Source of the DNA: a virus
Direction: 5' to 3' (one strand)
Virus record (IMG/VR): IMGVR_UViG_3300006847_000005
Coordinates: 1-50,673 of that record
DNA length: 50,673 nt
Below the pieces are notes generated by a model that saw only the letters and a program-made list of their open reading frames with translations, did no database searches and had not been told where the DNA came from. Positions 2,960 through 35,155 of the stretch are shown piece by piece (the first letter of the stretch is position 1; each line of letters starts with the position of its first letter). Position numbers and translations under genes: made by a program.

Positions 2960-3039
2960 TTTGGCCCCGTGTCCATCGTCTGGTACGATGGAGGCGGAGC
3001 TAGCTCAAACCGTAGCTAGTAACGCTAGAGAAAGGAGGC

Positions 3040-13224: not shown

Positions 13225-13896
13225 TCACTCCGACTCTCCTAGAATTGTCTTAATTAGTTCCTTTTCACCATGCTCGACATAGTAGGAGTTAATATCATGC
13301 CCGTCCGGCATTACGATTCCAACGGCGTGATTTCCAATCTTACGCGATACAACCTTGGAGAATTCTCTTCCAGCGGGGTCTCCATCACCAATGACAAAGA
13401 CTCGTTCGTAGTCCTCAAAAAGACGAGACCAGTGGGACTTCCATTTCGTAGCTCCCGCAATGCCGACACTAGGGAGGACGAGGGTATCAGCAATTGCTCC
13501 GTCCAGTTCACCTTCGCAGACTCCAATAGCAAAACTTCTCTCATGGAATGCTCCGACATTATAGACGTGATCCTCTCCGACCTGTAGGTATTTCTTGTGT
13601 CGCCACTGCACGGGGACTTCGGCTTCCTTCTCCCGCTCTGCAATCTCGGCACAGTCATGGTCCTCAATGCATCGGAATCGGATATCGACCACACCGGCAG
13701 GGGTGATATAAGGGATTGATAGTCGGCCATCGAATCGCCTATGCGCGGGCGGCGGTTCCGTTACGACGCCAAGGTGGTACGAAGCTGCGATGTCCTGCAA
13801 CCCTCGCGCTTGCAGCACCCCATCCGCCAAGTGAAGATGTGTCTCGTACCTCTCCGACTGCATCCCCAACCAGTTCCGTTGCTCGACTGACAGCAT
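13225..13896 (-). CDS. DnaG-like primase, Toprim part (split gene)
   Basis: 223 residues holding the catalytic Toprim domain: VCEGELDG (E128, D132) and VIGDGDPAG (D171, D173) for metal binding and primer synthesis. The zinc-finger part of the enzyme is the upstream ORF in another frame, overlapping by 158 bases. The first ~18 residues are a poor match to primases, while residues from ERYETHLHLADGV onward fit, so the functional protein may arise by a +1 shift from the upstream frame. Primases split over two ORFs are known in some actinophages. Confidence 0.75.
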   Translation of the reverse strand: MLSVEQRNWLGMQSERYETHLHLADGVLQARGLQDIAASYHLGVVTEPPPAHRRFDGRLSIPYITPAGVVDIRFRCIEDHDCAEIAEREKEAEVPVQWRHKKYLQVGEDHVYNVGAFHERSFAIGVCEGELDGAIADTLVLPSVGIAGATKWKSHWSRLFEDYERVFVIGDGDPAGREFSKVVSRKIGNHAVGIVMPDGHDINSYYVEHGEKELIKTILGESE

Positions 13897-14119
13897 CGTG
13901 ATATCCTAGTCCTTCCCGTTCCATAACCAACTGAATAGGTCCGCCACCCTTCCCGCAGGAGAAGCAGTGCCAGTCGTTCTCACTCAGCCTGACGGAACAG
14001 GATGGGTCCCGGTCGGGATGGACCGGACAACTCACCTGCTGGTTCTCCTCGTACTCGGGATTGAATTCCACTCCGTACTCTTCTAGCAGTGGCCTCAGCG
14101 GTAGATTCAAGTGACGCAT
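13739..14119 (-). CDS. DnaG-like primase, zinc-finger part (split gene)
   Basis: 126 residues; the first ~85 form the CHC2 zinc domain (C31, H34, C52, C55) that recognises template DNA, ending in the usual 'GYHDAVSRATELVG' helix. The remaining ~40 residues (GGWGAASARVAGHRSF) look like out-of-frame translation. GGAGG precedes the ATG. Together with the Toprim ORF it gives one full primase if the ribosome shifts +1; otherwise it is a two-subunit enzyme. Confidence 0.75.
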   Translation of the reverse strand: MRHLNLPLRPLLEEYGVEFNPEYEENQQVSCPVHPDRDPSCSVRLSENDWHCFSCGKGGGPIQLVMEREGLGYHDAVSRATELVGDAVGEVRDTSSLGGWGAASARVAGHRSFVPPWRRNGTAARA

Positions 14120-14243
14120 GGGGCCTCCAATCCGTACAGGTGCAGATATGTTCTGCACGGGGGTTACCGTGAAAGAAATGCGGCGCACCCCCAACGTGGT
14201 CGCCGCTTGGGTAGATAGGCCAGTCGTTAGTAGGAGCCAACAC
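13980..14243 (-). CDS. Possible small ORF upstream of the primase
   Basis: Begins at a GTG as MLAPTNDWPIYPSGDHVGG, then PRAEHICTCTDWRPHAS. The first ~45 codons read like protein and fill the gap between two genes, but the rest overlaps the primase zinc domain. It has no good ribosome site. Kept as doubtful. Confidence 0.3.
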   Translation of the reverse strand: MLAPTNDWPIYPSGDHVGGAPHFFHGNPRAEHICTCTDWRPHASLESTAEATARRVRSGIQSRVRGEPAGELSGPSRPGPILFRQAE

Positions 14244-14583
14244 CGGTCGCCCCGTCCCTGCACATATCACAGAGTGTGCGATACCAGCCGCCGCCCTTGC
14301 CCTTCGGGAGGCGCGCGCCCTCTAGTGCCAGGGCACCACAGTTCTCGCAAAGCTTGGCGCAGCGGGACTCGGCAAGCTGAATGGACTGCTCGATGCGCTC
14401 AACCTCGTCATGATCCAGCCCGTAGTGATTGATGTAAACACGCAGGCCACCAAACTTTTCCTTGACCTGGATAACCTCGTAGTGTGGGTAGATGGCGCTG
14501 ATTTCCATGTGTAGTTCATCCAGCACACGCTCCCAGCCCCGGCCTACATTCATCTTCTGGTCAGGAATCTGCTGCTTCTGCAT
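14227..14583 (-). CDS. Hypothetical zinc-binding protein
   Basis: 118 residues. The N-terminal part contains VKEKFGGLRVYINH, a pattern common in small phage proteins. The C-terminal part has CENCG...CDMC, two CxxC knuckles likely to bind zinc. The ATG lies within the end of the resolvase-like gene. Function unknown. Confidence 0.7.
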   Translation of the reverse strand: MQKQQIPDQKMNVGRGWERVLDELHMEISAIYPHYEVIQVKEKFGGLRVYINHYGLDHDEVERIEQSIQLAESRCAKLCENCGALALEGARLPKGKGGGWYRTLCDMCRDGATGVGSY

Positions 14584-15703: not shown

Positions 15704-16489
15704 TTAGCCGAAATGCATATTCGAATAGTTGAATGACAGGTCTACGGCGACCCGTCCTGACTTATCACTCGGGCCACTCCTGTTCTTGACAGGTGCAGCA
15801 TACTTGTGCCCGCCGCCGCCTTCGCCTAGGGTGATCACCAGGGCGGGCTTCTGGCTCACCTTACCATGGATCGCCTTGCGCGGCGGTGCCGGATCATCCC
15901 TATACTCCTCCGACGTATGGTGTAGGACGAGGATGAACGGATACTCCGTGCGTGCAAGGGACGTGAGCCCCTTCATGACACGGCGCATACCGCCCCACTC
16001 GTCCTCCCCGTATCCGTCAACATCGGTGAGGTTATCGACCACCATGAAGTCTGGACTCTCGCCCCACATTTCCTGAAAGGCAAGCAGTTCCTCGTGCATG
16101 GTATCGTAGGTGATGTCCGGCTCGAAGGACCACTTGAGTCCCTTCGTGTTGTCGTACAGTGTTTCCAGAGAACCCGAGTCCTCCGACTCTAGCATGTACT
16201 CGGCGGTGGCCACGTCATTGCTGAACGTGGTCATGGCCAAGGCCCGAGACGCCTGCACCAGGGGGGTGCTGTCAGCCGAGAAGTACAACCCCTTGAGGTT
16301 GAAGTCCTTGACCCACCGAGTAGCATGCCAGAGTGCGAGCAGAGACTTGCCAGCACCAGGCTGACCAGCGATCATAGCCACCTCGCCTCGACGGAACAAC
16401 ATCTTCCGTTGCTCGAAAGCAGGGAATACCGATGGAAGGGGATGGCCCCCCTGTCCGTTCGCCAGGATGGCTCGATCTAGAGACTTCAC
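15704..16489 (-). CDS. RecA/DnaB-like ATPase, putative helicase
   Basis: 261 residues, a single RecA-fold domain: Walker A AGQPGAGKS (41-49), Walker B FMVVD (148-152), then a LVLHHTSEE segment and Lys/Arg-rich C-terminus like the DnaB/KaiC group. It lacks the N-terminal domain of full replicative helicases, so it may be a minimal helicase or a recombination ATPase. GTG start coupled to the upstream stop. The nearby primase supports a replication role. Confidence 0.75.
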   Translation of the reverse strand: MKSLDRAILANGQGGHPLPSVFPAFEQRKMLFRRGEVAMIAGQPGAGKSLLALWHATRWVKDFNLKGLYFSADSTPLVQASRALAMTTFSNDVATAEYMLESEDSGSLETLYDNTKGLKWSFEPDITYDTMHEELLAFQEMWGESPDFMVVDNLTDVDGYGEDEWGGMRRVMKGLTSLARTEYPFILVLHHTSEEYRDDPAPPRKAIHGKVSQKPALVITLGEGGGGHKYAAPVKNRSGPSDKSGRVAVDLSFNYSNMHFG

Positions 16490-17019: not shown

Positions 17020-17418
17020 TTACTGTATGTTATAGTCCGGAACGACGGACTCGGGCTTGAAAGTCACCCGGTAGTGATCCGTACTCACGTTCACCGGGTC
17101 TGCCTGTAGAACAAAGTATGTCACATTGTCCGATAGCCCAAGGAAGTGCTTAGAGTAGCCACTCTTGTCCTTGCAAGTAACCTCCAATTGCCTGCCCTCG
17201 TCATCAATGGAACAGTAACCCTCGAACTCGGCGACATACTTGTCGGTGATGCCGTTGTAGAATACGATCTGTCGCGGCACCTCGAAGTTGTCAGCGGCCT
17301 TGCTGATATTCTCCGATGCCACCTCAGCGTCGTCGCTACAGGACGACAGTCCAACGATGACCGCGAACGCCAGGAGGGCAGCCGCAATCATGCGTGGAAA
17401 TGTTAAATGCTTGCTCAT
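17020..17418 (-). CDS. Phage lipoprotein, beta-sandwich type
   Basis: 132 residues with a lipoprotein signal: basic start, hydrophobic core and LSSC lipobox (Cys27). The mature part, with EVPRQIVFYNGITDKYVAEFEGYCS and HFLGLSDNVTYFVLQADP, matches a lipoprotein family widespread in actinobacteriophages, believed to be a beta-sandwich. It should be anchored on the outer face of the host membrane; superinfection exclusion is a common guess, unproven. ATGA overlap with the upstream membrane protein. Confidence 0.75.
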   Translation of the reverse strand: MSKHLTFPRMIAAALLAFAVIVGLSSCSDDAEVASENISKAADNFEVPRQIVFYNGITDKYVAEFEGYCSIDDEGRQLEVTCKDKSGYSKHFLGLSDNVTYFVLQADPVNVSTDHYRVTFKPESVVPDYNIQ

Positions 17419-17660
17419 GCAGTAATCTCCCGTCCGTTGACGTGATACATCCTCGTCTCATAGAGAATCTGTTCCGACAGGATACCCCGGTCGGCGTCCT
17501 CTATGGCGAAGTTAGCACACGCATGAATAGTTTCTTCCGCCAAACCTAGCTTGAGTCGTAGTTCCCTAGTCTCGATCTTGGTTCCCTTGTCGGGGAAGCG
17601 CGTTCCCAAAAGGAACGCACCCCCCACGATCACAAGGAAAATCACCAGGGTAACGAACAT
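17415..17660 (-). CDS. N-terminally anchored membrane protein
   Basis: 81 residues: TM helix at about 2-20 (FVTLVIFLVIVGGAFLLG) followed by a charged, helical cytoplasmic or external domain. The ATG is in the TAATG overlap with the gene before; a GTG 18 bases earlier is possible. Followed directly by the lipoprotein. Confidence 0.65.
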   Translation of the reverse strand: MFVTLVIFLVIVGGAFLLGTRFPDKGTKIETRELRLKLGLAEETIHACANFAIEDADRGILSEQILYETRMYHVNGREITA

Positions 17661-18088
17661 TACCGGTTGCGCTTCCACTCCTCGCCAGTCTCCGCATCAC
17701 GCGGCTGACAGGCATTCGGGTCACCCTTCTTGAGCGGGCAGAAATATGCTTGCCACTGTCCGCCGTTGTAGTACCTCATCTGGCCGTGGTCACAGTACTG
17801 CTGACCGGCACCCTCGCCTCGCTCGCGAGACTCGGCGGCGTCCTTACGCCGTCCGTAGCCACCGCTGCGCGGAGCCGATTCCGAGCGCTCGGTGGGTTCC
17901 GAGGTCGTACCGGGCATAGCCCGCCTCACGGTATCCGTCGCCTCGGCCAGACGCAATGCGTCCATCACCTTGTCCATGTCGGGGTCGTCCAGGACCTCCC
18001 ACATTTCGGACCAGGTGTCCGCCCCTACATGCACGTTACCGTACGGCACGGTCGGGATGGTGGCCTCGATTCGCCACTTGTCAGTCAC
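17660..18088 (-). CDS. Hypothetical protein with C-terminal Cys/His cluster
   Basis: 142 residues: an ordered N-terminal ~55 (TIPTVPYGNVHVGADTWSEM), a low-complexity Arg/Ser/Gly linker, and a C-terminal CDHGQMRYY...AYFCPL...NACQ that could bind zinc. This layout resembles phage ssDNA-binding or zinc-tail proteins, but I cannot assign it. AGGAGG precedes the GTG start. Confidence 0.65.
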   Translation of the reverse strand: MTDKWRIEATIPTVPYGNVHVGADTWSEMWEVLDDPDMDKVMDALRLAEATDTVRRAMPGTTSEPTERSESAPRSGGYGRRKDAAESRERGEGAGQQYCDHGQMRYYNGGQWQAYFCPLKKGDPNACQPRDAETGEEWKRNR

Positions 18089-18438: not shown

Positions 18439-18576
18439 TCACATGTGTCGGCTGTTTGTGGGCAGACAGGCCATGCAAATCAGCCACAATCCACCGAAGA
18501 ACAGGGTCGTCAGCGGATCACCTGTGCTGATCGCCATAGCGAACAGCACGAACATCGCCCACATCAGCAACCACAT
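18439..18576 (-). CDS. Small membrane protein, two TM segments
   Basis: 45 residues, nearly all hydrophobic, with a polar turn (STGDPLT) between two helices. Its ATG overlaps the nuclease stop (TAATG). Function unknown. Confidence 0.55.
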   Translation of the reverse strand: MWLLMWAMFVLFAMAISTGDPLTTLFFGGLWLICMACLPTNSRHM

Positions 18577-19247
18577 TAGAAGTCGGGTACCTCCGCTACC
18601 TTTTCGGGGTGCTCGGACATCACCCAGCACCAGTCTCGCACGCCGCAGGAGCCGCACAGTGGTCCCGGATTCGGGACGTATAGGTTCTGGTTGATCATAT
18701 TCCTGCTGGCCTGTAGCACCTTGCCCACTCGCCGGTCGGTGTACCGATCCAGTACGAAGTACGGACCCGTGTCCGCCTTGCGGGCGTTGTAGAACGCACC
18801 GAACTTCACCCTCACTCCAAAGCGAGCGTCGATAGCGCATGCGTACTCTCCAAGCTGCATCGGGGACTTGGGTGTACCGGAACCGGTTTTCCAGTCTACG
18901 ATGATGAGGTCACCGTCACTGTCTCGGACGACGACATCAATGTGTCCTCGCCACGGGATGCCGCCAATCGCGATGCCGTCGATTCCCAACTCGATAGCCA
19001 GACTACCAGTAGGTGTGCGCCACACTTCCCATCCCTCTTCAACAGCCATACGATCCCACCAAGCGACCCAAGCGGCAACCATCTTGGGACCCTCAGTAAG
19101 CCAGTAATCCTGGTTTTCCTTGTCTGGCCAAGCCTTAGACTTACGACCAGACGCTCGCCAGTCCTCCGGGGGAACGTCTGTCCACTGCTGCGCCTCTTCC
19201 ATTGCAGCGTGGAACTCGTCCGTGAAGAAATGTTCATAGTCAGTCAT
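18576..19247 (-). CDS. PD-(D/E)XK/Cas4-like nuclease, C-terminal part (split gene)
   Basis: 223 residues containing the RecB/Cas4-type core: GHIDVVV (D104), IVDWKTG (D118, K120), a QL..Y motif (131-135), and three C-terminal cysteines C198-x2-C201-x5-C207 typical of the iron-sulphur clasp. The enzyme's first motif and the fourth cysteine lie on the preceding ORF, in another frame with an 8-base overlap. A stop in this frame occurs two codons upstream of its ATG. Probable 5'-3' exonuclease for recombination or host DNA degradation. Confidence 0.8.
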   Translation of the reverse strand: MTDYEHFFTDEFHAAMEEAQQWTDVPPEDWRASGRKSKAWPDKENQDYWLTEGPKMVAAWVAWWDRMAVEEGWEVWRTPTGSLAIELGIDGIAIGGIPWRGHIDVVVRDSDGDLIIVDWKTGSGTPKSPMQLGEYACAIDARFGVRVKFGAFYNARKADTGPYFVLDRYTDRRVGKVLQASRNMINQNLYVPNPGPLCGSCGVRDWCWVMSEHPEKVAEVPDF

Positions 19248-19437
19248 CGCCTACCTTCTCTCTGAGGATTTTCTCGATGCAGGCGTGGACTGCGTTCCCC
19301 CCGACGAGTGCCCAGGCTGAACCGGAATCCATCTTGAGTACCCGTTCCAGTCGATACTGTTCGCCACAGGTGGCAAGGCTCGTATGACGGGAGAAGGACA
19401 TCGGCGGCGGGCCATCAGGAATTCCAGTATCCGTCAT
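19240..19437 (-). CDS. PD-(D/E)XK/Cas4-like nuclease, N-terminal part (split gene)
   Basis: 65 residues with the family's opening SFSRHTSLATCGEQYRL (C24, the first iron-sulphur ligand) and VGGNAVHACIEKI (H51, active-site motif I). It ends DD-stop as UGA followed by C, next to the start of the second part. Reading +1 across the stop gives continuous family sequence (...KVGDD/DYEHFF...). Either a programmed or translational-coupling split, or a single-base indel in the assembly. Confidence 0.7.
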   Translation of the reverse strand: MTDTGIPDGPPPMSFSRHTSLATCGEQYRLERVLKMDSGSAWALVGGNAVHACIEKILREKVGDD

Positions 19438-19579
19438 GATCCAACCTTCCATAGTAGAAGAGAATGGTGGTCGGCTCGTAGCCTGGCTCGGTCTTGTAGA
19501 TGCCATACCAGATACCATAGGAGTCGCACGTAATGAGAGGCTGTTGTGCCTCATGTGTACCCCTCTGAATTCTAATCAT
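19415..19579 (-). CDS. Hypothetical 54-aa protein
   Basis: Starts MIRIQRGTHEAQQPLITCDS and continues YGIWYGIYKTEPGYEPTTIL, an aromatic-rich, beta-like sequence that clearly reads as protein. The ATG overlaps the WhiB stop, and its end overlaps the nuclease start by 23 bases. It was the best-fitting frame in this gap. No family recognised. Confidence 0.65.
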   Translation of the reverse strand: MIRIQRGTHEAQQPLITCDSYGIWYGIYKTEPGYEPTTILFYYGRLDHDGYWNS

Positions 19580-20315
19580 TTAGACTGATCACTCCGTCTC
19601 GTTCCGTGATTCGGTCTTGGAGTTGTAGCATAGCCTGCTCGAATGAAGGGCGGCGATTAGCCGCCAGCCGAGCGTATAGCTTCGGTCGCGTAGCTTCCTC
19701 ACCCAGCGCATGAATACCCCGGATGACTCCGGCGACGGCTGCTTCGAGGGGCGTTGCCCTGACGGTTGCTGTAACAGGTTTTCCGGCTTGGCGAGCACGC
19801 TCTCGTAGAATCTTAGTACGGCGTCGTAGTCCTCGCTTCTCATCAGGATCGCACCAGGCGCAGTACTCGACAGTCGTGTTGTTGGCCAGTCGATTGCCAC
19901 AACCCCCGGCGCAATAGTCCGTGCGAAGTTCCCCTCGCTTCTGGCGAGAGCTATAACTGGTACCGCCCCAAATCCCGTGCTCTTCGTTCCGTCCGTACTC
20001 AAGACATTCCTCCCTCACCGGACACGCGTTGCATATCTGCCTTGCCTCGCTGTTGAGTCCGCCGTGCTCGGGAAAGAATATCTCGGGGTCCTCCCCGACG
20101 CAGTTCGCTTCCGTCATCCAGTCGCTCTGCCTCAGGTCCGTCCCAACTCTCTGAATCAGGCTCAACCACACGTTCCCACTGGATGTCCCCCGCTGCCTTC
20201 GACCACCCTGGCCGTTCAGGCTTGCGCGGCCTGCTGGGCCGCTGACGGACCGGGCGACCCATTGATCCCCAGCGTCCATAGTTGTCAGCACTCGCTTGGG
20301 CCTGACGTTGGGCAC
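19572..20315 (-). CDS. whiB-like: WhiB-family iron-sulphur transcription factor with extra zinc ribbon
   Basis: A Wbl regulator: WhiB proteins bind a [4Fe-4S] cluster and host sigma factor SigA and occur in Actinobacteria and their phages. Ligands are C72, C95, C98 and C104 (C-x22-C-x2-C-x5-C), followed by GIWGG (114-118). A second CxxxC...CxxC group (C135, C139, C152, C155) and a helical C-terminus extend it beyond the usual ~100 residues. A GTG with AGGAGG four bases upstream gives 247 residues, but the first ~65 look like out-of-frame sequence; ATG 20117 would give a conventional start. First recognisable gene of the operon, so likely an early regulator. Confidence 0.8.
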   Translation of the reverse strand: MPNVRPKRVLTTMDAGDQWVARSVSGPAGRASLNGQGGRRQRGTSSGNVWLSLIQRVGTDLRQSDWMTEANCVGEDPEIFFPEHGGLNSEARQICNACPVREECLEYGRNEEHGIWGGTSYSSRQKRGELRTDYCAGGCGNRLANNTTVEYCAWCDPDEKRGLRRRTKILRERARQAGKPVTATVRATPLEAAVAGVIRGIHALGEEATRPKLYARLAANRRPSFEQAMLQLQDRITERDGVISLND

Positions 20316-21180: not shown

Positions 21181-21252
21181 AGGTACTGACGAGACTCGAA
21201 CTCGCATGGTTCCGCTTTGCAGGCGGATGGCTAGCCACTCACCCACAGTACC
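21181..21252 (-). tRNA. tRNA-Cys (GCA)
   Basis: Acceptor GGTACTG/CAGTACC, anticodon stem TCCGC/GCGGA around loop CTGCAAA, T-loop TTCGAGT, discriminator U as is usual for Cys. No encoded CCA. Last tRNA of cluster 1. Confidence 0.9.
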
Positions 21253-21325
21253 AGGGTGCCTGTGTTCCCACTATCTCACGGGTTAGGGAGTCCCGATACC
21301 TCATTGAATGCCACAGGCAGCACAG
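21253..21325 (-). ncRNA. tRNA-sized structured spacer, possible degenerate tRNA
   Basis: Exactly 73 nt between two tRNAs. The ends pair (TGCCTGT/ACAGGCA) like an acceptor stem, and an inner CGGG/CCCG hairpin has loop CTCCCTA, which would give anticodon CCC (Gly). But there is no T-arm consensus and the D-arm is poor. A decayed or highly atypical tRNA, or another small RNA. Confidence 0.3.
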
Positions 21326-21404
21326 TGCGCCGATCAGGAATCGAACCTAACCTGCCGAAGCGAGAGTTTTACAGACTCCCTGTACCACCAGGTACTTCCG
21401 GCGC
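21326..21404 (-). tRNA. tRNA-Tyr (GTA)
   Basis: Acceptor GCGCCGG/TCGGCGC, anticodon loop CTGTAAA, extended variable arm as expected for bacterial tRNA-Tyr, T-loop TTCGATT, discriminator A. Confidence 0.9.
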
Positions 21405-21405
21405 G

Positions 21406-21479
21406 TGGCGCAGGTGGGATTTGAACCCACGACTTCCAGCTTATGAGGCTGGCGAGCTACCGAACTGCTCTACTGCGCT
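21406..21479 (-). tRNA. tRNA-Met (CAT)
   Basis: Anticodon stem CCAGC/GCTGG with loop CTCATAA, T-loop TTCAAAT. The first acceptor pair is A1-C72, a mismatch in the position that is also unpaired in bacterial initiator tRNAs. The anticodon stem lacks the three G-C pairs of initiators, so elongator Met is the best call; Ile (lysidine) is possible. Confidence 0.85.
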
Positions 21480-21738
21480 AAGAAGGGTGGAAGGTGGGAT
21501 TGGCGACCCACAAGGTACGGGGCAAGAGTTACCATGCCTAAGTAGTCCGTCCATCTACGAGGCGGTGTCTAACCTGAGTGCCAACCGGACTGACTACCGG
21601 CGTTGGTCCTCTTCTCCCATCCTCAGCAGTTCGCCCTTGGATGGTTACGAGTGACACTCCCTCGCAAGCCTTACGCCCCAGCCTTGCCTGTAGACGTTGT
21701 TCGGCCACTTCCTGACAAGGCCGCTAAGCCTTGCCTAG
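21480..21738 (-). ncRNA. Structured non-coding spacer within tRNA cluster 1
   Basis: 259 nt with no tRNA consensus and no credible ORF. On the transcribed strand it contains CAAGGC-N6-GCCTTG, a GCAAG/CTTGC stem, GAGTG-TCA-CTC, CCATCC-N16-GGATGG, a CCAAC.CCGG/CCGGTTGG stem and GTGGG/CCCAC near the 3' end. It lacks the tRNA-like ends of tmRNA and recognisable RNase P sequences. Transcribed with the tRNAs; function unknown. Confidence 0.4.
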
Positions 21739-21811
21739 TAGGTGTGACAGGACTCGAACCTGCATCGTGCTGGGTGTAAACCAGGTGCTCAACCAGTTGA
21801 GCTACACACCT
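21739..21811 (-). tRNA. tRNA-Val (TAC)
   Basis: Perfect acceptor AGGTGTG/CACACCT, anticodon loop TTTACAC, D-arm GCTC/GAGC, T-loop TTCGAGT, discriminator A. Confidence 0.9.
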
Positions 21812-21815
21812 TCGG

Positions 21816-21889
21816 TACCCCTACCAGGATTCGAACCTGGACCCTACTGCTTAGGAGGCAGTTGTACTAATCCATTGTACCATAGGGGC
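21816..21889 (-). tRNA. tRNA-Arg (CCT)
   Basis: Acceptor GCCCCTA/TAGGGGT with a G-U first pair, anticodon stem ACTGC/GCAGT with loop CTCCTAA, T-loop TTCGAAT, discriminator A. Reads AGG. Confidence 0.9.
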
Positions 21890-21890
21890 G

Positions 21891-21962
21891 TGGTTCCGAC
21901 AGGGATCGAACCTGTGCGCTCCGGGCTTCAACCGGAAGCTCTGCCAACTGAGCTACAGAACC
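21891..21962 (-). tRNA. tRNA-Phe (GAA)
   Basis: Acceptor GGTTCTG/CGGAACC, anticodon stem TCCGG/CCGGA with loop TTGAAGC, T-loop TTCGATC, discriminator A. Confidence 0.93.
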
Positions 21963-21963
21963 G

Positions 21964-22036
21964 GGTGCTGGACGGGAGTTGAACCCGCATACTCCTGGGA
22001 CACAACCAGGCACGTCTGCCTTTGCGTTACCAGCAC
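21964..22036 (-). tRNA. tRNA-His (GTG)
   Basis: Acceptor GTGCTGG/CCAGCAC, anticodon stem CCTGG/CCAGG with loop TTGTGTC, T-loop TTCAACT, discriminator C as is characteristic of His. The base before position 1 is T, so the G-1 that HisRS normally needs is not evident. Confidence 0.88.
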
Positions 22037-22038
22037 AG

Positions 22039-22111
22039 AGCCCTATGAGAGATTCGAACTCCCGGCACCGTGGTCCGTAGCCACGTGCTCTATCCACTGA
22101 GCTAATAGGGC
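22039..22111 (-). tRNA. tRNA-Arg (ACG)
   Basis: Perfect acceptor GCCCTAT/ATAGGGC, anticodon stem CGTGG/CCACG with loop CTACGGA, T-loop TTCGAAT. Reads CGU (and CGC/CGA if A34 is deaminated). First tRNA of cluster 1, nearest its promoter. Confidence 0.92.
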
Positions 22112-33983: not shown

Positions 33984-34055
33984 TGGAGCTACACAGAATC
34001 GAACTGTGATCACCTGCTTGCAAAACAGGCATTCTGACCGTTGAACTACAGCCCC
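33984..34055 (-). tRNA. tRNA-Ala (TGC)
   Basis: Acceptor GGGGCTG/TAGCTCC (two G-U pairs), anticodon loop TTTGCAA, T-loop TTCGATT, discriminator A. Last tRNA of cluster 2. Confidence 0.9.
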
Positions 34056-34056
34056 G

Positions 34057-34130
34057 TAGCGGACTAGGGAATTGAACCCTACTCAACTGACTTATCAGAT
34101 CAGCGCTAGCAACCAGCTAGCCTGCCCGCA
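34057..34130 (-). tRNA. tRNA-Ile (GAT)
   Basis: Anticodon stem CTGAT/GTCAG with loop CTGATAA, T-loop TTCAATT, discriminator A. The acceptor TGCGGGC/GTCCGCT has a T-T mismatch at the first pair. Confidence 0.85.
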
Positions 34131-34131
34131 G

Positions 34132-34206
34132 TGACCCACGAGGGATTCGAACCCCCACCACCTAGGGTCTGAGCCTAGTGCCTCTGCCGAATTGGGCTAG
34201 TGGGCC
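34132..34206 (-). tRNA. tRNA-Leu (CAG), short variable loop
   Basis: Acceptor GGCCCAC/GTGGGTC, anticodon stem CTAGG/CCTAG with loop CTCAGAC, T-loop TTCGAAT, discriminator A. The variable region is only about five bases, whereas bacterial tRNA-Leu normally has a long arm. The isotype rests on the anticodon. Confidence 0.8.
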
Positions 34207-34211
34207 TTGCG

Positions 34212-34295
34212 AGGTAAGCGGAGGTCCTGATCCCCATTCCCGAAGGAACCATCCGGCTAGCAACCGGAGTGTGGCACTCGCCACATTCACCTACC
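34212..34295 (-). tRNA. tRNA-Ser (GCT)
   Basis: Acceptor GGTAGGT/GCTTACC, anticodon stem TCCGG/CCGGA with loop TTGCTAG, long variable arm closed by TTCG, as expected for Ser. The T-arm is weak (loop ATCAGGA). Confidence 0.83.
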
Positions 34296-34296
34296 A

Positions 34297-34370
34297 TGGA
34301 GCCGCAAGTAGGAATCGAACCCACGTCTACTGTTTACAAGGCAGCAGCTTTACCATTAAGCTATAGCGGC
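34297..34370 (-). tRNA. tRNA-Thr (TGT), CCA encoded
   Basis: Acceptor GCCGCTA/TTGCGGC with one T-T mismatch, D-arm GCTT/AAGC, anticodon loop CTTGTAA, T-loop TTCGATT. CCA follows the discriminator in the DNA. Confidence 0.82.
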
Positions 34371-34371
34371 A

Positions 34372-34458
34372 TGGAGGAAGGTAGAGGGTTCGAACCCCGC
34401 CCCAAACGGAGCCCCCGGTATTCGACACCGGTTGCGCGCCACTCGCACAGTACCTTCC
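34372..34458 (-). tRNA. tRNA-Ser (CGA), CCA encoded
   Basis: Perfect acceptor GGAAGGT/ACCTTCC, anticodon stem CCGGT/ACCGG with loop GTCGAAT, long variable arm, T-loop TTCGAAC, encoded CCA. Confidence 0.9.
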
Positions 34459-34507
34459 GGAGCATCGCCTTTTGATAGGTAGGTGGAGGCGACACTAAAA
34501 CCACCAG

Positions 34508-34579
34508 TGGGTCATATAGGATTCGAACCTATATCTTCCGGGTAAGAGCCGGATGTTCTCGCCATTATACTAATGACCC
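34508..34579 (-). tRNA. tRNA-Lys (CTT)
   Basis: Perfect acceptor GGGTCAT/ATGACCC, anticodon stem TCCGG/CCGGA with loop CTCTTAC, T-loop TTCGAAT, discriminator A. About 50 bases of non-tRNA spacer separate it from tRNA-Ser. Confidence 0.92.
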
Positions 34580-34584
34580 GTGCG

Positions 34585-34655
34585 TACCACATAGGGGGAA
34601 CGATCCCCTGCTTTCAGGTTGAGAGCCTGACGTGCTGCCATTACACCAATGCGGC
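34585..34655 (-). tRNA. tRNA-Glu (CTC)
   Basis: Acceptor GCCGCAT/ATGTGGT, anticodon stem TCAGG/CCTGA with loop CTCTCAA, discriminator A. The T-loop (ATCGTTC) departs from the TTCRANN consensus. Confidence 0.83.
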
Positions 34656-34656
34656 T

Positions 34657-34733
34657 TGGAGCGGGTGACCGGATTCGAACCGGCTCTATCTGCTTGGAAG
34701 GCAGAGGTGCTTGTCCGTTAACACTACACCCAC
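34657..34733 (-). tRNA. tRNA-Gly (TCC), CCA encoded
   Basis: Acceptor GTGGGTG/CACCCGC, anticodon stem TCTGC/GCAGA with loop CTTCCAA, T-loop TTCGAAT, encoded CCA. Confidence 0.9.
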
Positions 34734-34734
34734 G

Positions 34735-34806
34735 CGCGACTGACGGGAGTTGAACCCGCACCTTCCACCTTGACAGGGTGGCGCTCTACCTTTGAGCTAC
34801 AACCGC
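34735..34806 (-). tRNA. tRNA-Asp (GTC)
   Basis: Acceptor GCGGTTG/CAGTCGC, D-arm GCTC/GAGC, anticodon stem CCACC/GGTGG with loop CTGTCAA, T-loop TTCAACT, discriminator G as usual for Asp. Confidence 0.92.
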
Positions 34807-34807
34807 T

Positions 34808-34883
34808 TGGCACTTCACCTAGGACTCGAACCTAGACTACGTGGTCCAGGGCCACGCGTGCTGCCGAATTACACCAGCGAAGT
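34808..34883 (-). tRNA. tRNA-Gln (CTG), CCA encoded
   Basis: Acceptor ACTTCGC/GTGAAGT, anticodon stem CGTGG/CCACG, T-loop TTCGAGT, discriminator G typical of Gln, encoded CCA. The loop CCCTGGA has C at position 33 instead of the near-universal U. Confidence 0.85.
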
Positions 34884-34887
34884 ACGG

Positions 34888-34961
34888 TCCGAGAGGCAGG
34901 ATTCGAACCTGCGGTCCCCTGGTCCCAAACCAGGTGCTTTGCCAAGCTAAGCTACACTCGG
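34888..34961 (-). tRNA. tRNA-Pro (TGG)
   Basis: Acceptor CCGAGTG/CTCTCGG with one T-T mismatch, anticodon stem CCTGG/CCAGG with loop TTTGGGA, T-loop TTCGAAT, discriminator A. Confidence 0.88.
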
Positions 34962-35010
34962 TAGGCCCCGTTCTTTTCTGTAGGGGGAACGGTGCTTATA
35001 AGACCCCTCG

Positions 35011-35082
35011 CTGGCCTGGTAGGATTCGAACCTACAACCATCACCTTAACAGGGTGCTGCGCTGCCATTGCGCCACAAGCCA
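35011..35082 (-). tRNA. tRNA-Asn (GTT)
   Basis: Acceptor TGGCTTG/CAGGCCA with U1-A72 as in Asn tRNAs, anticodon loop CTGTTAA, T-loop TTCGAAT, discriminator G. A ~50-base spacer with a CCGTTC/GAACGG stem follows it. Confidence 0.9.
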
Positions 35083-35083
35083 T

Positions 35084-35155
35084 TGGCACCAGAAGTAGGA
35101 GTCGAACCCACTGCTAACGGTTTTGGAGGCCGCTATGCTCCTCAGCATCTCTGGC
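35084..35155 (-). tRNA. tRNA-Trp (CCA), CCA encoded
   Basis: Acceptor GCCAGAG/TTCTGGT (G-U at both ends), anticodon loop CTCCAAA, T-loop TTCGACT, discriminator G, encoded CCA. First tRNA of cluster 2, about seven bases after the predicted transcription start. Confidence 0.87.

Follow-up and report, generated by a model that had tools for sequence, protein, structure and literature searches.

A Cas4/AdnA-type nuclease gene divided over two ORFs at a recurrent site in actinophage-like genomes

AddB holds its iron-sulphur (Fe-S) cluster by one N-terminal and three C-terminal cysteines. To our knowledge, every Fe-S nuclease of the Cas4/AddB/Dna2/AdnA type consists of one chain, whose N- and C-terminal parts are stapled to each other by the cluster. 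The cluster of Cas4 is also held by one N-terminal and three C-terminal cysteines (PMC3466216, PMC5704561), and alanine in place of any of the four in SSO0001 results in insoluble protein (PMC3466216). In the window (the whole stretch of DNA analysed here, a virus record of 50,673 bases with an actinophage-like layout), a nuclease of this type is spread over two overlapping ORFs, A and B. Is such a gene read through by programmed frameshifting, broken by a sequencing error, or the source of two chains that work together? The initial annotation had left these three options standing.

It had also described ORFs of 65 and 223 aa overlapping by 8 bases, and this is what the window contains (Table 1), with ORF B in the +1 frame relative to ORF A on the minus strand. 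The PF12705 profile is matched by ORF A at positions 2-53 (E = 3e-5) and by ORF B at positions 41-246 (E = 2e-15); the halves are in profile order, and joining them gives E = 3e-22, in agreement with the earlier view that the joined frames make seamless family sequence. The whole-domain match across both ORFs places the protein among the PD-(D/E)XK nucleases of the Cas4/RecB type. ORF B also matches Cas_Cas4 (PF01930, E = 3e-7) and the exonuclease family PHROG 1870 (E = 5e-34), and PHROG 69 and PHROG 1870 agree with the PF12705 picture of the two ORFs. The motif H...D...D-x-K is present, its His being on ORF A and the D/D/K on ORF B, as is the four-cysteine "iron staple" pattern, with the N-terminal cysteine on ORF A and the three C-terminal ones on ORF B. 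In an alignment with six single-ORF homologues from isolated phages of Mycobacterium, Gordonia, Rhodococcus, Streptomyces, and Cutibacterium, the residues C24 and H51 of ORF A and, on ORF B, the active-site residues D104, D118, and K120 and the predicted Fe-S ligands C198, C201, and C207 are all invariant. Profiles and alignment thus confirm that ligands and active site are divided over two ORFs. At the gene level, the window and about 100 relatives have the four ligands on two ORFs and not on a single polypeptide.

Table 1. Features of the nuclease locus, in window coordinates
Feature	Position	Strand	Remarks
DnaB-like helicase, downstream of nuclease	15704..16489	(-)	PHROG 243, E 4e-55
Small gene downstream of ORF B	17660..18088	(-)	Similar ORF after B in L009, L047, L075, L109, L248, L271 (likeness by eye only)
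ORF B, catalytic nuclease piece	18576..19247	(-)	223 aa
ORF A, N-terminal nuclease piece	19240..19437	(-)	65 aa, ATG at 19437
Overlap of ORF A and ORF B, ATGACTGA	19240..19247	(-)	8 nt; ORF B start codon over ORF A stop codon
Shine-Dalgarno-like GAAGG	19254..19258	(-)	6 nt before ORF B ATG
Motif-I H51 on ORF A	codon 19285-19287	(-)	Invariant in alignment
Fe-S ligand C24 on ORF A	codon 19366-19368	(-)	Invariant in alignment
Shine-Dalgarno-like GGAAGG	19445..19450	(-)	Before ORF A ATG

A structure was predicted for the 286-aa sequence of A and B joined as a single chain, with TGAC read as D. The model is of moderate quality (mean pLDDT 73, pTM 0.75, with residues 1-23 and the C-terminal cysteine region under 50) and shows a single nuclease fold to which both ORFs contribute; such a fold match does not by itself show two-chain assembly. 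Its best solved match is the nuclease domain of AdnA from the actinobacterial AdnAB (6ppu, 7sjr, 9np6; sequence E = 5e-12, fold Z 12.5 over model residues 17-271), followed by Dna2 (11.3), ACE1 (11.0), AddB (10.7), and Cas4 (9.0). In the model, the break is within the loop 61-69, between helix 42-60, which carries H51, and helix 70-84.

The surroundings of the gene are those of a replication module. Among about 25 window ORFs scanned against families were genes for replication, head, tail, and packaging as well as WhiB-like ones, and these general scans named no CRISPR or Argonaute gene. The terminase is nearest to that of Streptomyces Beephvirinae (43-44%), and other ORFs match a DnaB-like helicase, a split primase, RusA, a DnaQ-like exonuclease, and a WhiB-like ORF. 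In the single-ORF isolates, too, a few genes separate the nuclease from the DnaB-like helicase that follows it in the replication module. The WhiB-like regulator (19572-20315, minus strand; match at positions 56-177 of a 247-aa ORF) is immediately upstream of the small ORF that precedes ORF A, and the ORF at 17020-17418 (minus strand) has 67-69% DNA similarity to mycobacteriophage genes annotated as recombination directionality factor. The window also has 18 tRNA genes in two clusters (21181-22111 and 33984-35155, minus strand).

A search with the helicase led to OX376641. This is Planktophila phage LanE43AprF5, a lytic isolate that infects a Nanopelagicales host (PMC10202952). Its nuclease is split as well, into overlapping ORFs of 61 aa (A) and 202 aa (B) with B in +1, and so is that of the sister Planktophila phage E7, again with B in +1. 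Two scans of IMG/VR then gave 131 loci. Taking together all the loci examined, isolates and the window included, the split with B in +1 is found at 88 (86 IMG/VR contigs, LanE43AprF5, and the window), and the split with B in -1, through an ATGA overlap, at five (L109, L111-L114). The nuclease is an intact single ORF at 34 loci (7 isolates and 27 contigs). No ORF A was found beside B at 13 loci, five of which have it farther upstream, the others beginning at or just before B. In L248, taken from the record of a terminase relative, A and B are joined by a GTGA overlap, with B in -1, and the -1 form thus occurs in two lineages apart from that of LanE43AprF5. On the profile (282 positions), the break invariably maps between 61-66 and 66-77, and because it recurs in about 90 contigs the split is not a chance artefact. 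The comparison with relatives proposed at the outset returned both forms, a split at the same site in the 86 contigs, LanE43AprF5, and E7, and an intact gene at the 34 loci.

Scans of IMG/VR with the window's ORF B or helicase as query found no close kin, and no prophage relative was found in a scan of bacterial genomes. Nearer kin were obtained with an alignment of the B proteins of the window and L248; among the closest found (35-38% identity) are pairs that are split and pairs that are separated. The searches turned up no near-identical second record, and the window's own junction has thus been seen once.

In several relatives, A and B are not even adjacent. Five IMG/VR contigs of the LanE43AprF5 clade are of this kind. 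In three of them (L047, L048, and L050), the end of A at 2045 and the start of B at 3001 enclose two ORFs chained by short overlaps; the other two, L075 and L081, have one ORF between the halves. Two of the window's nearer kin show the same: in L268, the two halves flank a 62-aa ORF, to which they are linked by overlaps (ATGA and GTGA), and in L271 they flank three ORFs. The small genes that lie exactly between the halves differ from each other and are mostly of unknown family (L047 2045-3017, L075 2682-3011, L268 1807-1995, L271 217-764), as if the junction were a favoured insertion point. Introns and split inteins were considered and rejected. Searching Rfam with the loci of nine relatives gave no hit within the junction or the stretch that separates the halves, and in the window only tRNAs; family sequence runs directly to the end of A and from the start of B, which leaves no room for the halves of a split intein.

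These separated pairs weigh against the first alternative, that a programmed +1 shift at the overlap yields a fused nuclease, as in RF2 (prfB). The joined sequence is indeed seamless, the adjacent pairs overlap so that a shift is possible in principle, and the window's stop is UGA C with the Shine-Dalgarno-like GAAGG upstream. The initial annotation had likened GAC-UGA-C to the RF2 site, and part of the likeness stands: the UGA C stop and an upstream purine-rich stretch are shared. The slippery codon is not. The shift zone of the window is the 8 nt before the stop of ORF A, and the best P-site re-pairing within it, as with the GAC tRNA in +1, is 1/3 bases, versus 3/3 at the RF2 codon. Nor is there a conserved shift site, as neither the junction DNA nor the stop codon nor the frame is conserved across relatives. 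The stops of all adjacent pairs are TAA in 66, TGA in 26, and TAG in one, the next base varies, the overlaps differ, and the required direction is +1 or -1 depending on the lineage. With one to three genes intervening, as in the separated pairs, frameshifting is impossible, yet both halves are kept. Hence, frameshifting was not borne out and is improbable as the explanation of the locus, even though adjacent pairs could make a small amount of fused product.

The second alternative is that the gene is intact in the virus and looks broken in the window's contig through a sequencing or assembly error of one base. A single-base change would join the frames, and many relatives have the gene intact. 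However, the break sits at the exact site of the split in about 90 other contigs and two isolates, and the closest kin found include split and separated pairs. ORF B begins exactly at the break with an ATG that has its own ribosome-binding site: its Shine-Dalgarno duplex energy (-6.4 kcal/mol, versus -6.2 for ORF A) is like that of typical genes in the phage, while all ATGs on the strand average -3.0 kcal/mol and 12.5% of them match the value of ORF B or better. An 8-nt overlap is also found in another gene pair of the same operon (17660-18088/18081-18413, minus strand). Conservation of the split, the common break position, and the ribosome-binding site make an indel very unlikely in this contig.

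In the clade of LanE43AprF5, strong purifying selection acts on each of the halves, with a median dN/dS of 0.087 for A and 0.105 for B, and the cysteine and histidine of A are present in all 91 sequences. Between contigs in which A and B are separated, pN/pS is also low (L047 against L081: 0.015/0.249 for A, 0.016/0.424 for B). Among the contigs in which the region of A is covered, no phage that keeps B has lost A or its cysteine or histidine. That A or B is a decaying remnant out of use is scarcely credible: phages do carry broken genes, and beyond that the idea has no direct support, while it is contradicted in the AprF5 clade by a dN/dS of about 0.1 on both pieces, and opposed by the low pN/pS of the separated pairs, by the retention of all active-site and cysteine residues in the window, and by the presence of the split in lytic isolates (PMC10202952).

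In trees of A plus B, split and intact forms are interleaved. For example, the separated L271 and the intact L243 are sisters (support 100/96) and adjoin the split L248; this pair is a candidate for re-fusion or for a comparatively recent fission. Constraining all split sequences together is rejected (p-AU 7e-5), which speaks against a single origin of the split and for repeated fission, perhaps with re-fusion too, at one loop. The deep branches, including the place of the window, are long and weakly resolved: in a first tree the window groups with L248 and L243 (99/92), and in a second, with more kin, it is unplaced among a mixed group.

The two-chain option of the initial annotation is strongly supported by the split at the same site, its occurrence in both frames (+1 and -1), and the separation of the halves by other genes. 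With the two ORFs, their conserved ligands, and purifying selection also established at the gene level, the phage's Cas4/AdnA-type nuclease is very probably made up of two distinct chains, which would be produced by coupled translation and form one assembled Fe-S nuclease. ORF A would be translated up to its UGA, and the same ribosome, or a new one recruited through GAAGG, would start ORF B at the overlapping AUG; a start coupled in this way would keep the two products in step. Chain A would give the first helices with Cys24 and His51, chain B the PD-(D/E)XK core and the three C-terminal cysteines, and the Fe-S cluster, with one cysteine from A and three from B, would link the two subunits of the assembled enzyme. 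We infer the expression of both chains from the genes; their assembly, the cluster, and the nuclease activity are presumed by analogy with the Cas4/AddB family. The neighbouring helicase, primase, and resolvase genes make end-processing in phage DNA recombination or replication a plausible role.

Several known systems resemble this one in part. The Cas4 family exonucleases of actinophages (PHROG 1870; Mycobacterium, Gordonia, Rhodococcus, Cutibacterium, and Streptomyces phages) belong to the same family and have the same residues and the same DnaB-like helicase neighbourhood, but they are a single ORF in all seven isolates examined closely, from a set of about a thousand phage records with a match, whereas the window has two ORFs that are apart in some kin. 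AdnA is a domain of a large single-chain helicase, in contrast to the free-standing nuclease of the window, which its genes predict to be in two chains. Cas4 proteins (SSO0001, Pcal_0546) are PD-(D/E)XK nucleases with the same cysteine pattern as the window (PMC3466216, PMC5704561); SSO0001, Cas4 complexes, and ACE1 match the model with Z 7.7-11, but are single-chain. The primase of these phages is a replication protein that is also in two ORFs. In the window these overlap (13225-13896 and 13739-14263, minus strand), with the CHC2 zinc ribbon (PF01807) on one and TOPRIM on the other, and the primase of LanE43AprF5 is likewise on two (L009, 7307-7696 and 7545-8171). There, however, the break is between domains, in a family already captured (PHROG 360, which covers the Zn-ribbon half, and PHROG 849), whereas the nuclease is broken inside one fold. 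In the open-access papers searched, we found no phage nuclease of the Cas4/RecB type described as split or two-chain, and the words "split," "two subunits," and "truncated" are absent from the Cas4 phylogenomics paper.

A stronger reading goes further: that this is an obligate two-subunit Cas4/AdnA-type nuclease with an Fe-S cluster ligated across subunits, whose loading controls assembly and activity, and that the arrangement arose or was undone repeatedly in actinophages by fission and fusion at a single loop. We consider the case for it evenly balanced. The cut in the chain lies between the two ends of the staple and has come about more than once at the same position; among the phages concerned are those of an abundant order of freshwater bacteria. 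Should the system be confirmed, it would be a natural test of the role of the cluster, as structure or as redox switch, and a ready-made split nuclease. It would also be a warning that annotation can miss a half of 60 aa. The locus further shows that what looks like a frameshift in a phage gene can be a genuine fission.
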